This document shows, piece by piece, positions 6,278-64,000 of a stretch of 64,000 nucleotides of DNA; position 1 is the stretch's first letter, and every line of letters begins with the position of its first letter. The stretch spans positions 133,801 through 197,800 of the forward strand of contig PKTX01000006.1 in the NCBI GenBank assembly GCA_002868945.1, read 5' to 3'. Origin of the DNA: Desulfobulbaceae bacterium. Its GTDB lineage: Bacteria > Desulfobacterota > Desulfobulbia > Desulfobulbales > SURF-16. The notes under the pieces are model-generated. The model had not been told where the DNA came from and searched no databases. It was given only the letters and a program-made list of their open reading frames with translations. The translations under genes and the position numbers were made by a program.

Positions 6278-8128
6278 CTACCCGGCAGCCAGACAGGAGC
6301 TGCTTTCGCAGAGAGGGGTATTGGTTCCATCTTCTGACAGTTTTTTTGTGCGGGAGCACTCAAAGATTATTTCCAGTTCCTCGCTATCCAAGGTCTCGGT
6401 TTGCAGTAGAGTTTCGGCCAGGTGTTTGAGAAAGGATCTGTGGCTCTGCAAGGTGGCGTGGGCAATCTTGTTGCACTCCGTCACCAGTCGGCGGACGGTC
6501 TTGTCGATCTCCCGGGCCGTGAATTCACTGAAGACCATCTGGCTCTCTCCCCCCAAAAAACCTTCTTCGGCCCGGCTGTAAGCCAGGGGACCAATCTGGT
6601 CATCCATGCCCCACTGGCAGACCATTTTGGTGGCAATCTGGGTGGCGCGCAGCAGGTCATCTTCGGCCCCGGATGTTTGTTGAGTCAAGGCGATTTTCTC
6701 GGCAGCCCGACCAGCGAGCAGAATGGTGATCCAATTGAGGAGATACTCCTTGTTATAGGTGTAGCGATCGGTAAGTTGCTGCTGTTGTGTGTGGCCCATG
6801 GCCTTGCCGCGGGGAATAATGCTGATCTTCTGAATGGGATCGGTGTTGGGAAGCAGGCGGGCCAGAATGGCATGACCGGCCTCGTGATAGGCCATGGTGC
6901 GGCGCTCATCCGCGTTGATAACCATGCCCTTTCGTTCGGCACCCATCATGATACGTTCGATGGCGGCGTGGAAGTCCGATTCATAGATGCCATCCTTGTC
7001 GTTGCGGGCGGCAATAAGGGCAGCTTCATTGACCAGATTTGCCAGTTCGGCGCCGGTAAATCCAGGAGTTTTTCTGGCGATTTCCGCCAAATCAACATCC
7101 CGGGCCAACTCCACCAGGGTGGCGTGCACGGCGAGAATCTTCAGGCGACCCTTGAGATCGGGTGGATGGATGGTGATCTGCCGATCAAAGCGTCCCGGTC
7201 GCCTGAGGGCCGGATCAAGGATGTCGGGCCGATTGGTGGCGGCCAGAACAATGGTGGTGTCATACCGGCTGAAGCCATCCATCTCCACCAGGAGGGCGTT
7301 CAGGGTCTGGCCCCGTTCGTCTTGACCGCCCACACCACTGCCCAGGCTGCGGTGGGCGCCCACCGCATCAATTTCATCAATGAAGATAATACAGGGGGAA
7401 TTTTTTTTTGCCTCCTTAAACAGGTCACGGACGCGGGAGGCACCGACACCGACAAACATCTCCACAAAATCCGAACCGCTGATGCTGTAAAAAGGGACCT
7501 GCGCCTCTCCGGCAATGGCGCGGGCCAGCAGAGTTTTACCGGTGCCGGGCGCTCCCTGGAGAAGAATACCTTTGGGGCTGCTGGCTCCGAGGCGGGAAAA
7601 AAGTTTGGGGTTCTTCAGAAAATCAATAATCTCCTGGAGCTCCTCCTTGGCCTCCGGGATACCGGCCACGTCACGGAAGGTCACCTCGCGTTCACCGGGG
7701 GCCAGGCGCACCACCTTGTCTCTGGCAAATTCGCTGGTGGATTCTTCCTGGCGTTGCGAACGGGGCTGGCCCCAGGCGATGGCCATTATCATCAGGGTAA
7801 AGCCGGCAGCCAGAAAGGTGACGATGAGTTGCCAGAGGGCCAGGGGGCGCGGTTCAGCACTCATCTCAATGCGGCTTGCGTCCAGCTCGGCCATAAAGGC
7901 GGCAATATCCGGGATAAAGCTGGCGAGCCGGCGATTATGCTGGTCGACAAAAATTACCTCATTGCCGCGCAGATGAATTTTCCGTATTTCATTCTGCTCC
8001 AGGCTGTTGACAAACTCGGAATAGGATACGTTGGGTAGACGGTGTTCTATGTGCCAGATGAAAATGGCAAAAGCGCCAAGACAGGTGATGATGATGGTGG
8101 CAAAGGAGATATAGAAACTTCGAGCCAT
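6278..8128 (-). CDS. ftsH: ATP-dependent zinc metalloprotease FtsH
   Basis: FtsH is a hexameric membrane AAA+ protease that degrades misfolded membrane proteins and regulators. Visible features in order are an N-terminal membrane helix ([17 protein letters not shown]), a periplasmic loop, a second helix ([19 protein letters not shown]), Walker A GAPGTGKT, Walker [10 protein letters not shown], the SRH region ([21 protein letters not shown]) and the zinc site HEAGH. The ATG at 8128 gives 616 aa, a normal length; the upstream 13 codons in the ORF are not needed. The C-terminal tail is rich in Ser, Thr and Cys and not conserved. A 7 bp-stem hairpin (GCGGAAA/TTTCCGC, 6206-6225) lies downstream but lacks a U-run. 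Confidence 0.96.
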
Positions 8129-61118: not shown

Positions 61119-61613
61119 CAGAAAGAGGCGCGTCACGACTTCAGGGCATATCCCTATTACGGTTCCCCATTCAGCACTGTCCTTCGACAGGGGATGGGAC
61201 CGGTCCCTGAGCCTCTCGAAGGGGCACGGCTCCCTGCTCGCTCAGTTCTGCAATGGGGATAAACAGCATGGGTACTGATCCGGATACAATATTCGAGCTA
61301 TAAAAGTTAAAAGCGGACTTGACCCCTTTTGCACTGTCTCAAGTGCCTTGAACCTGATGGATGACTGGTGCGGTGCAAGTTGCCGACACATGAGATCGAA
61401 ATACCGGGTGCTGGGAAAGAAGCCTTGATCACCGCAGGAGAACGCGACAAGTATTAACCTTCTCAAGATGGAGAAAATGGTTTTTCCATCACAAGGGAGA
61501 ATACTATCTCTTGACAAGGGCCTTTTGATGGATGACCCCTCTATCAGGATTTGCTCAAATCCACATGAAACGTCGAAGGGCCTCTAATATCGGCTCCCTC
61601 TAGGATCGGATAT
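61119..61613. other. Non-coding stretch with REP-like palindrome, left flank of the AT-rich island
   Basis: No convincing gene. It holds an imperfect ~42 bp palindrome at 61181-61222 (CCTTCGA...GGGACCGGTCCC...TCGAAGG), which resembles REP-type repeats found widely in bacteria, and an AACTTGACCCC-like phrase near 61316 seen next to REP-associated elements. It ends where the AT-rich island begins. Confidence 0.45.
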
Positions 61614-62192
61614 TTATTCATGACGACCATCGTCACGAGCTAAATAGCGAACAAGACAGGAATGCAACAAAAGCCAAGTTTTGAAATTTAAGCGTGCTTC
61701 AATATTTGAATGATCAATTAAGCACTGTTTTTCGATTGAATTTATAATTGTTAAATCTATAAAAAAATCATTATCTTCACTGTCCCATCTGGGTATAAAA
61801 ACTCTTTTATAAAATTTATATTTTTTAAAATTACCAAGAATGTCGTCCGGTATATCCTGAGGTATTGGGATAAGAGGTGTAATATGTGTTAAGTGAGGTA
61901 TTTTTAATGAAGAATTTTGTGATAAATCCCTAGCTAAATCACAGGTGTTTCCTAATATAACCCAATAAGAAAATTCTTCATCAATTATTGCTACATCTCC
62001 ATCACTGTCAATATAGACAGGGTCACTTTTTAATGTGATAATGTCGCCTTGGAATAATTCCGCCCCGTCAACATCAGGGACAAAAAAATGATGGAATATT
62101 GATCCATCATTTATTAATTCCTTAATCTGTTTTCCTAATTCATTAAAATCATAAATAGGTGGCCAGCGGCCAAAATTTTCGGCAATATTCAT
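61614..62192 (-). CDS. Unknown protein, third gene of the AT-rich island
   Basis: A 192-residue soluble protein, acidic, with base use much richer in A and T than its neighbours. The segment ELFQGDIITLKSD...VAIIDEEFSYWVILGNTCDLARDL resembles the QGDI...VxxxCDI pattern that I recall from small uncharacterised proteins in accessory regions; this is not a named family. Its ATG overlaps the stop of the middle gene (ATGA), so the two are coupled. Function unknown. Confidence 0.65.
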   Translation of the reverse strand: MNIAENFGRWPPIYDFNELGKQIKELINDGSIFHHFFVPDVDGAELFQGDIITLKSDPVYIDSDGDVAIIDEEFSYWVILGNTCDLARDLSQNSSLKIPHLTHITPLIPIPQDIPDDILGNFKKYKFYKRVFIPRWDSEDNDFFIDLTIINSIEKQCLIDHSNIEARLNFKTWLLLHSCLVRYLARDDGRHE

Positions 62193-62587
62193 GTCCTTCT
62201 GTTGACCATGATTTTTTTTGTTTTGACTGGGATCTGGCTAAAAAACAGGTCAGCTTCTTTTTCAGCCTCATCATCTCCTTCAAGAAAGGCTATTTGATTT
62301 AGAATGTTAAAAGATGCAGCTATGTCATTTGTCGAACCATTAGGTAAAGTAACCGATGTTTCTACATCAGACCAGGTTGGGCTGTCAGATGAATATAACT
62401 TATTGATGATATAACTATCGCTCCCTCCCTTTGTCTCCGGGAGGCACGTGCGTGCCGTTGGTTGAAAAATAGAGCCACTATTGAGCAGAATGGCGCCACA
62501 AACTACCAGTGTTTTAGTCATATCAGAAATGGAGTATTGTGAACTTTGGTTTTGTAAAAAATTGTCATAAAGTTCTGTATTATACAT
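62189..62587 (-). CDS. Unknown protein, second gene of the AT-rich island
   Basis: A 132-residue soluble protein without recognised domains. It has a hydrophobic stretch (MTKTLVVCGAILLNSGSIF) too short and mixed for a sure membrane span, a Ser/Thr-rich middle and a basic C-terminus (KTKKIMVNRRT). Its ATG overlaps the TIGR04255-type gene by 8 bp and its TGA overlaps the next start. AT-rich like its neighbours. Confidence 0.6.
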   Translation of the reverse strand: MYNTELYDNFLQNQSSQYSISDMTKTLVVCGAILLNSGSIFQPTARTCLPETKGGSDSYIINKLYSSDSPTWSDVETSVTLPNGSTNDIAASFNILNQIAFLEGDDEAEKEADLFFSQIPVKTKKIMVNRRT

Positions 62588-63308
62588 TATCGTACTCCGG
62601 ATTAAGTGTTTCTAAAAATTCAGGTCTCAATAAGTCAAAAAAAACCTTTAAAGAAATTTCATGCTGCTTATCTATTAATGTGACCAGTTCTACAAAAGGT
62701 ATGCTGTCTTTAGGCTCTGCAAAAGTGTCAGTATCAATTATAGAGCCAATGTATTGTTTTTCATCTCGCCGTATAGTTGTATTGTTTTGTATGTTAACTC
62801 TAGTTGTCAATTCATCATGTTCAAATATTGTGCTAATTGTTGTTTGCTTAGCAACAAGCGGTTGATCATTTAGTTTAATTGACAACGTTATCTTTTCGAA
62901 AATATCAGTTTCAAAAAAGTCGATATACCTAATTCCTATTCTCTTAAAAGATTTAACAATCCCTGATTTTTCTAGTTGCCGAATAATGTGTTGTAGAAAA
63001 GGATAAAAATTCTCTTTCCAGCCGACATAATCTCCCGAGGTGCCAAGAGAGATTACGCTTGGGCCAACACTTAATCGATAGCCCCCAGAAACTGATTGAT
63101 AGCAGGGGGCAAATTTCAATTGGGGATCATTACGCCTTATTTCTTCTGGAATCTCAGCGATCGGCAACTTTTTGAAATTTGAGAACTCTTCACGAACTAC
63201 ACTGAACAACATGCCCAGTACAGCATCGGGTGGGATTTCACTCTCAAATCGAAATTCCACGACAGCGTCAATTATTGGATCAGGTGTTATTTTTGTCGGC
63301 CTTGGCAT
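62580..63308 (-). CDS. TIGR04255-family protein, first gene of the AT-rich island
   Basis: A 242-residue protein whose N-terminal pattern (PRPTKITPDPIIDAVVEFRFES), middle block (FAPCYQSVSGGYRLSVGPSVISLGTSGDYVGWKENFYPFL) and RIGIRYIDFFE match the sporadically distributed family TIGR04255, of unknown function and often found in accessory DNA. The ATG at 63308 is preferred to the GTG at 63317. A promoter-like TTGCAA-17-TATAAA lies just upstream. It heads a three-gene coupled operon. Confidence 0.75.
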   Translation of the reverse strand: MPRPTKITPDPIIDAVVEFRFESEIPPDAVLGMLFSVVREEFSNFKKLPIAEIPEEIRRNDPQLKFAPCYQSVSGGYRLSVGPSVISLGTSGDYVGWKENFYPFLQHIIRQLEKSGIVKSFKRIGIRYIDFFETDIFEKITLSIKLNDQPLVAKQTTISTIFEHDELTTRVNIQNNTTIRRDEKQYIGSIIDTDTFAEPKDSIPFVELVTLIDKQHEISLKVFFDLLRPEFLETLNPEYDNV

Positions 63309-63322
63309 GAGGTGCACACTTG

Positions 63323-63351
63323 TTTATAGAAATTTTATCGGCATGTTGCAA
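63323..63351 (-). promoter_or_regulatory. Promoter of the AT-rich island operon
   Basis: On the minus strand TTGCAA and TATAAA are separated by 17 nt, 15 bp before the proposed ATG. The very short leader fits the absence of a good Shine-Dalgarno. Confidence 0.5.
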
Positions 63352-64000
63352 CAGAGCTCAAAAGTTAATTTTCGTTACGATACCAAACAATCTAATCATT
63401 GTGAATCGGATTGTGAATGAACATTCAGAGCAAAAGCCATTTCGGGAGAAGTTGTAATATTCCGGGGACATAATATCAATTAGCCGAGTGAGCAATCAAG
63501 AGATAAGGGGGCAGGTTCACTTTTGTCTTTTGTCTGGTTCCATCATGCCGGGTTTGGACATATTCCGGAGACATAATACCAGTTCTTGGCATCCCTTCGG
63601 AAATTGCTGGTTTGACCGGGGTGTATAATCGTGCACGCTACTGCGTAACCAAGAACCTGACAACCTATTTCCTGCTGTTGGTGGTGTTTGTGTGTGTCCT
63701 GCTAAGCAGAACGAAGAAACAGTGCGGCGCGATTGCGACCCATAATGGCCGGTGCCGAAAAAATTCTATAGAGCCCGCAGGGCACCTTATTACAGTTCCC
63801 ATCCAGCCCTGAACTCGTAGTGGCTCGGCAAAGGGATTTGAATTGCACCCCAAGGGCACTTCCGCTGGGCGCAGCATGTCTGAACACCCGCATATTCAAC
63901 GCATCAGCAAACAGTTGTAAATTTGGTTATTGAAATTCCCAAAATGGATCATTGGTCCATTCATTCGGCATACCCATATGAGCCCGGCTGACTTCCGGAA
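63352..64000. other. Non-coding right flank of the AT-rich island with repeat debris
   Basis: No convincing gene. ATATTCCGGGGACATAATATC (about 63458) and ATATTCCGGAGACATAATACC (about 63559) are two copies of a 21 bp direct repeat of a kind often seen beside insertion sequences. CACCCCAAGGGCAC at about 63845 matches a block in the 46.4 and 54.9 kb repeats, and TTATTACAGTTCCCATCCAG (63787) resembles CTATTACGGTTCCCCATTCAG at 61154 on the other side of the island. Confidence 0.45.

Follow-up and report, generated by a model that had tools for sequence, protein, structure and literature searches.

The window analysed here, 64,000 nucleotides of Desulfobulbaceae DNA, ends with three small overlapping minus-strand reading frames whose base composition sets them apart from the rest, and the question was what such a set of genes does. 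An initial annotation, made from the letters alone, had guessed at a compact defence or toxin-antitoxin (TA) module. The genes (g1, g2 and g3 in operon order) and the features around them are the following.

62580..63308, minus strand: g1, 242 aa, TIGR04255 family; proposed stabiliser or gatekeeper of the antitoxin (NCBIfam TIGR04255, phrog_5464, AlphaFold2)
62189..62587, minus strand: g2, 132 aa; proposed antitoxin (same slot in relatives; C-terminal tail tracks toxin class)
61614..62192, minus strand: g3, 192 aa; proposed toxin of a new family with predicted MazF-like fold (phrog_4575, Foldseek, PemK profile)
61613..63443, minus strand: the unit transferred as a whole, comprising the three genes and ~135 bp in front of g1 (DNA comparison)
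63309..63443, minus strand: conserved stretch without coding sequence in front of g1, probably the promoter region (common to L015 and L069; promoter-like matches weak)
63457-63481 and 63560-63584, no strand: pair of imperfect direct repeats of 25 nt, just beyond the unit (88% identical)

The ORF coordinates bear out the overlaps that had been reported, 8 bp between g1 and g2 and 4 bp (ATGA) between g2 and g3; g1 could also start at an in-frame GTG, at 63317. The sharp contrast in base composition is also real: the GC content is 35.6% in the module and 57.5% in the window, and across the first 61 kb of the latter the minimum for a stretch of 1,695 bp is 50.7%. The window ends with its contig, 557 bp beyond the unit.

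The borders of the unit were defined by DNA comparison. The 1.83-kb interval 61613-63443, which runs from the g3 stop codon to ~135 bp upstream of g1, was 91% identical to L015/L068 (one assembly) over exactly this length and 89% identical to L069 (Desulfofustis sp. PB-SRB1). The borders were sharp, and no similarity to these copies was found in the flanks on either side. Since identity is confined to this interval and the flanks are unrelated, the comparison indicates that the three genes and the upstream region move as one unit and were transferred as a whole. Between copies, dN/dS was 0.08-0.20 over all three genes (g1, 0.08-0.11; g2, 0.16-0.20). This is purifying selection, and all three are thus being maintained as functional proteins. 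Upstream of g1 there were 15 matches to promoter consensus sequences as compared to 7.4 ± 3.2 in shuffled sequences; with this modest excess the single shared promoter that had been claimed is plausible, rather than established.

The repeat debris noted at the flanks was found as well, TTACRGTTCCC phrases at ~61158 and ~63789 accompanying the direct repeat at 63457/63560. In Desulfofustis the unit is bracketed by an 87-bp direct repeat (GGACAGACCACGTTTTCCCC..., L069:5383-5469 and 7725-7811, 91% identical), which resembles mobile-element debris; comparable repeats adjoin the copy in the window. This pair had prompted the idea of an integron cassette, which was set aside on the debris-like look of the pair. 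In L015, a genome of the window's family, a transposase-like gene (IS91-type by eye, L015:4311-5606) lies ~450 bp upstream of the unit.

The head gene had been described as TIGR04255-type, and g1 is a member of this family, scoring 131.3 bits against NCBIfam TIGR04255 at a cut-off of 30; it also matches phrog_5464. Linkage of the three genes in other genomes, which the initial annotation had named as a test, was found in several bacterial groups and in phages. Scanning of genome contigs with a g1 profile yielded 40 loci, g3 being detected with profiles from earlier seeds only. At 34 of the 40, found by g1 alone, g1 was followed by g2 (~95-133 aa) and then by g3 (~170-225 aa), in that order; the third gene was of the QGD...SNTCD type and encoded ~200 aa. 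The remaining six comprised four with a shorter SNACD-like third gene, one contig end and one different third gene. Records with the linked trio come from Desulfobulbaceae, Bacteroidota, Pseudanabaena, Lentisphaerae, Omnitrophota and Nitrospinaceae; the trio is also present in Dobby and VW-6S, two phages of Pseudomonas, as well as in IMG/VR contigs and on one Phocaeicola plasmid. Conversely, a TIGR04255 gene adjoins eight of the nine phrog_4575-family matches in the order and phylum samples, the ninth match being a 60-aa fragment. g1 is the constant third component of three-gene modules.

The presence of relatives in phage genomes would also fit decayed prophage genes for structure or morphogenesis. 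We find this explanation barely credible: the phage copies are carried as cargo next to genes for structure or lysogeny, most relatives lie on chromosomes and have intact, overlapping frames, and the low dN/dS speaks against decay. A known prophage structural block, named in the initial annotation as an outcome that would refute its guess, is ruled out by genomic context, the genes having accessory positions in Dobby and VW-6S. In Dobby the set lies directly before the portal gene and downstream of the integrase. Hotspots of defence genes have been described next to the portal gene in P2-like phages of E. coli and, in P2-related phages of Vibrionaceae, between cI and integrase (Rousset et al., PMC9122126). 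The positions in Dobby and VW-6S suggest that the module may be used against phages. Some annotations of these phage copies are faulty. The XerC integrase annotated in VW-6S (VW6S_17, L025:4908-5048) is the C-terminal part of the module's 105-aa g2; in Dobby the TIGR04255 gene (HOU64_gp01, L024:1090-1854) is annotated from 1483 only, so that about half of it is lost, and the g2 annotation is likewise shortened.

If g1 is the constant part, the third gene is where the modules differ. TIGR04255 loci were sampled regardless of their neighbours, and the gene two places downstream was compared with Pfam. The matches among the 25 loci were PIN (four), HEPN (three), PemK_toxin (two, in L044 and L045; best E-value 4e-14), HicA_toxin (one, 3e-4) and DUF7689 (four). 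The 40 genes upstream of the same TIGR04255 genes belonged mostly to metabolic and housekeeping families, and none of the slot's toxin domains was among the 25 families listed of 48. Of 87 non-redundant loci in a wider set, 78 had a third gene belonging to one of nine classes, and several of the nine that did not run off the contig; the class profiles were partly built from the same loci, and the independent evidence is therefore provided by the Pfam counts. By this comparison the third slot of TIGR04255 modules is a toxin slot, and since recognised toxins fill this slot in sister modules, the early guess of a TA module is well supported.

Three loci showed where such toxins may be exchanged. 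L042, L044 and L045 have close g1 genes (53-91% DNA identity by 60-bp block), and a recognisable likeness extends into the N-terminal parts of their g2 proteins. Beginning with the second half of g2, L044 and L045, both of which carry PemK, held 79-93% identity, whereas L042, whose third gene is of the TQDCD type, dropped to background (~35-57%). Thus, as judged from the aligned DNA, the toxin swap point between L042 and L044/L045 lies inside g2. When toxin class was mapped on a g1 tree of 84 proteins, 17 changes were counted as compared to a minimum of nine and a mean of 36 in shuffled data, indicating that the classes are inherited but have been repeatedly exchanged. By these comparisons TIGR04255 serves as a reusable chassis, and different pairs consisting of an antitoxin tail and a toxin are joined to it by recombination.

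Two segments of g2 were distinguished:

62462..62512, minus strand: residues 26-42 of g2, its most hydrophobic stretch of 17 residues; may be a segment that depends on g1
62192..62239, minus strand: C-terminal tail of g2 (region of SQIPVKTKKIMVNRRT), proposed to bind the toxin (tail type specific to third-gene class)

Searches of g2 and g3 against Pfam, NCBIfam, PADLOC and PDB sequences gave nothing informative. The g2 tails, however, could be sorted by the gene that follows: KTKKIMVNRRT-like tails stand alongside g3 of the window type, NDxFWDLI-like tails alongside most majority-type g3, GKSLGEFI alongside the SNACD-type third gene, and PRTPLGxxLxxLRxxA...GxxLL alongside PIN toxins. The PIN-type tail is common to L057 and to L041/L048/L062 despite their distant g1 proteins. 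On this sequence evidence g2 is probably the antitoxin of the unit. An alternative is that g2 is itself the effector and that g3 and g1 restrain or trigger it; g2 would then be a small peptide, active on membranes, whose N-terminal segment is hydrophobic. In 48 of 51 g2 proteins the most hydrophobic 17-mer does fall within residues 1-45, but its hydrophobicity is barely above that of shuffled sequences (median 1.55 as compared to 1.25, weak protein by protein), and in the PIN class the stretch is not evident. As, in addition, the tails vary with the third gene and recognised toxin domains occur in the third slot and not in the second, we consider this role highly improbable, and the membrane-toxin reading was rejected on the hydrophobicity values.

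For g3 the sole useful sequence lead was a weak match to phrog_4575 in PHROGs (E=1e-6). Single-sequence searches of phylum genomes, viral contigs, phages and plasmids yielded nothing new, and profiles were needed. Among g3 and its 43 relatives there were no Pfam matches beyond chance and none to PF02452, a family for which the window's own genome also gave no match. The best-conserved residues are QGD (48-50), N82, C84, D85, P106 and P134, most of them in two motifs:

62043..62051, minus strand: QGD motif at residues 48-50 of g3 (among 43 relatives the G never varies, and Q and D are each conserved in at least 90%)
61938..61949, minus strand: NTCD motif at residues 82-85 of g3 (among 43 relatives C and D never vary, and N is conserved in at least 90%)

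The AlphaFold2 model of g3 was moderate (pLDDT 69, pTM 0.68). In the input for structure prediction, rows from database matches were left out, and the two phage rows came from viral contig loci carrying the same genes. Nearly all leading Foldseek matches of the model were MazF, Kid or CcdB toxins, with a probability of ~1, a TM-score by target of 0.6-0.7 and E-values from 2e-3 upwards (none below 0.001). Profile-profile comparison of the full g3 set with PemK gave P=5.5e-4, with the core aligned collinearly, whereas unrelated pairs gave 0.06-0.8; the support from the PemK profile is nevertheless weak, since subsets of g3 alone reached just 0.03 and 0.16. Predicted fold and homology of the slot together support g3 as a putative MazF-fold toxin of an unrecognised family. 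The pair known for MazF is Arg/Thr. The conserved residues of g3 differ from this pair, and its chemistry may therefore differ. Toxicity of g3 would probably be exerted by RNA cleavage.

What g1 contributes was approached through its fold. The AlphaFold2 model was excellent (pLDDT 95, pTM 0.91) and depicts an alpha/beta protein seemingly made up of two halves that resemble each other. The nearest solved folds in a fold search, AdoMetDC and TATA-binding protein, were remote (TM ~0.3), and comparison with viral predicted structures gave one nameless match (TM 0.5-0.6). No homology to SecB was found: when the g1 profile was compared with SecB and with SecB-like proteins, the probability was 0.1-0.2% (98.7% in the control of SecB to SecB-like), and SecB was absent among the 50 fold matches listed.

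Within a TA module, g1 might act as a DNA-binding autorepressor or regulator and not as a stabiliser of the antitoxin. In the omega-epsilon-zeta system omega is the regulator. Autoregulation is common among TA operons, g1 is the first gene of its operon, and the DNA-binding saddle of TATA-binding protein is among the remote matches. We nonetheless regard this role as unlikely in view of the TM-scores of ~0.3, the N-terminal part of g2, which goes with g1 in L042/L044/L045 and so suggests protein-protein contact, and the acidic nature of the family (mean net charge -4.6; window g1 -9), which argues against DNA binding without excluding it.

The reading that we favour, with moderate confidence, is a three-component TA system in which g3 would act as the toxin and g2 as its antitoxin, with g1 dedicated to stabilising or gatekeeping. 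The module is arranged like the toxin-antitoxin-chaperone (TAC) systems, and on this ground g1 is proposed to stabilise g2, and the C-terminus of g2 to block g3. The block would be exerted by the toxin-class-specific tail. The N-terminal part of g2 would depend on g1, which would stabilise or hold g2 through this part and thereby do the job of the SecB-like chaperones of TAC systems. If g1 were titrated or g2 destroyed, e.g. by a phage product, or if the two no longer bound each other, g3 would be freed and growth would stop. As g1 is unrelated to SecB, its role as stabiliser of g2 is suggested by analogy.

In TAC systems a SecB-like chaperone protects the antitoxin, and an extension of the antitoxin confers chaperone dependence; such chaperones serve several unrelated TA families (PMC5105189). 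CmdTAC acts against phages, a phage capsid protein drawing the chaperone away (PMC11618068). Like the TAC systems (M. tuberculosis HigBA1-SecB(TA), HicAB- and MqsRA-type, CmdTAC), the unit consists of three small genes, with a constant third component joined to several unrelated TA pairs (PMC5105189). TIGR04255, however, is not SecB-like; it is the larger protein, and its gene stands at the head of the operon. Moreover, the C-terminus, which in TAC antitoxins bears the chaperone-addiction extension, is toxin-specific in g2; no such extension was found there, and the part of g2 that goes with g1 in L042/L044/L045 is N-terminal. Because SecB homology and a C-terminal addiction extension were both looked for and found lacking, the unit was not filed as TAC.

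One constant protein with varied effectors downstream could also be a defence system in which TIGR04255 senses phage and directly activates a nuclease effector, g3, with g2 as adaptor and without a true antitoxin. The positions in Dobby and VW-6S match the described phage-defence hotspots, yet most of the effectors belong to classical type II TA toxins (PIN, PemK, HEPN, HicA), which normally require an antitoxin, and the g2 tails match the toxin class. We judge direct activation quite unlikely, and retain the three-component TA system. A wider proposal, to which we give slightly less than even credence, is that TIGR04255 represents a second, non-SecB class of dedicated TA stabilisers or sensors, a general chassis that phages and bacteria would employ for abortive defence, with MazF-like, PemK, PIN, HEPN, HicA-like and DUF7689 effectors swapped via the antitoxin C-terminus.

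The unit shares with type II TA systems its small overlapping genes in one operon, its horizontal mobility and its sporadic occurrence (TIGR04255 in 5 of 58 relatives and in 32 of 395 phylum genomes, the window's own genome counted). A recognised toxin family is present in sister modules; the g3 of the window has the MazF-like predicted fold and the weak profile match. MazEF/PemIK (PF02452) is similar in that the g3 model resembles MazF and that PemK_toxin occupies the same slot in L044 and L045, but g3 is longer (192 as compared to ~115 aa), lacks a Pfam match and has QGD and NxCD motifs of its own, and the unit has a third component. The toxin domains of VapBC (PIN), HEPN and HicAB systems, which are two-gene systems in their classical versions, fill the third slot of sister modules but are absent from the window's module. 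In the networks of hyperpromiscuous antitoxins of the PanA type (PMC10440598) one protein family is likewise combined with many toxins; the shared part in those networks is an antitoxin domain, whereas here it is a separate protein, TIGR04255. PD-lambda-2 is also three-component, TA-like and anti-phage, its third component being needed for defence and not for toxin neutralisation, but it consists of other protein families, and TIGR04255 is not noted there (PMC9519451).

The view that the system is undescribed has held up. PADLOC 2.0.0 (5027 models) gave no match for g1-g3 or for the majority-type g3. In the searched literature, which covers neither bioRxiv nor many subscription journals, no description of the module was found and no paper names TIGR04255 or DUF7689. 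As far as we found, the kind of third component and the toxin family of g3 are both new, three-component TA systems as such being already known. The comparison gives TIGR04255, a family without described function, a putative role as the constant part of a three-component TA system, and makes it testable whether SecB is the sole protein able to act as a dedicated third component. L042, L044 and L045 are natural, ready-made swap pairs.

The same reading predicts, besides a new MazF-fold toxin family, more candidate toxins among DUF7689 and the unnamed third genes. DUF7689 is a candidate toxin family; its members in L043, L046, L047 and L058 have a conserved CIAWA motif and stand behind a HEAT-like g2. 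Another module class (L020, L021, L051-L055, L097 and L108) combines a GWDG-like motif in g2 with an unnamed third gene, which had no Pfam match in L052, the one tested. TIGR04255-headed sets with a HEPN-like third gene were observed at L022:4917-6686 and L023:3974-5424, the latter in Sulfurimonas phage SNW-1, near the genome end that carries regulatory genes.
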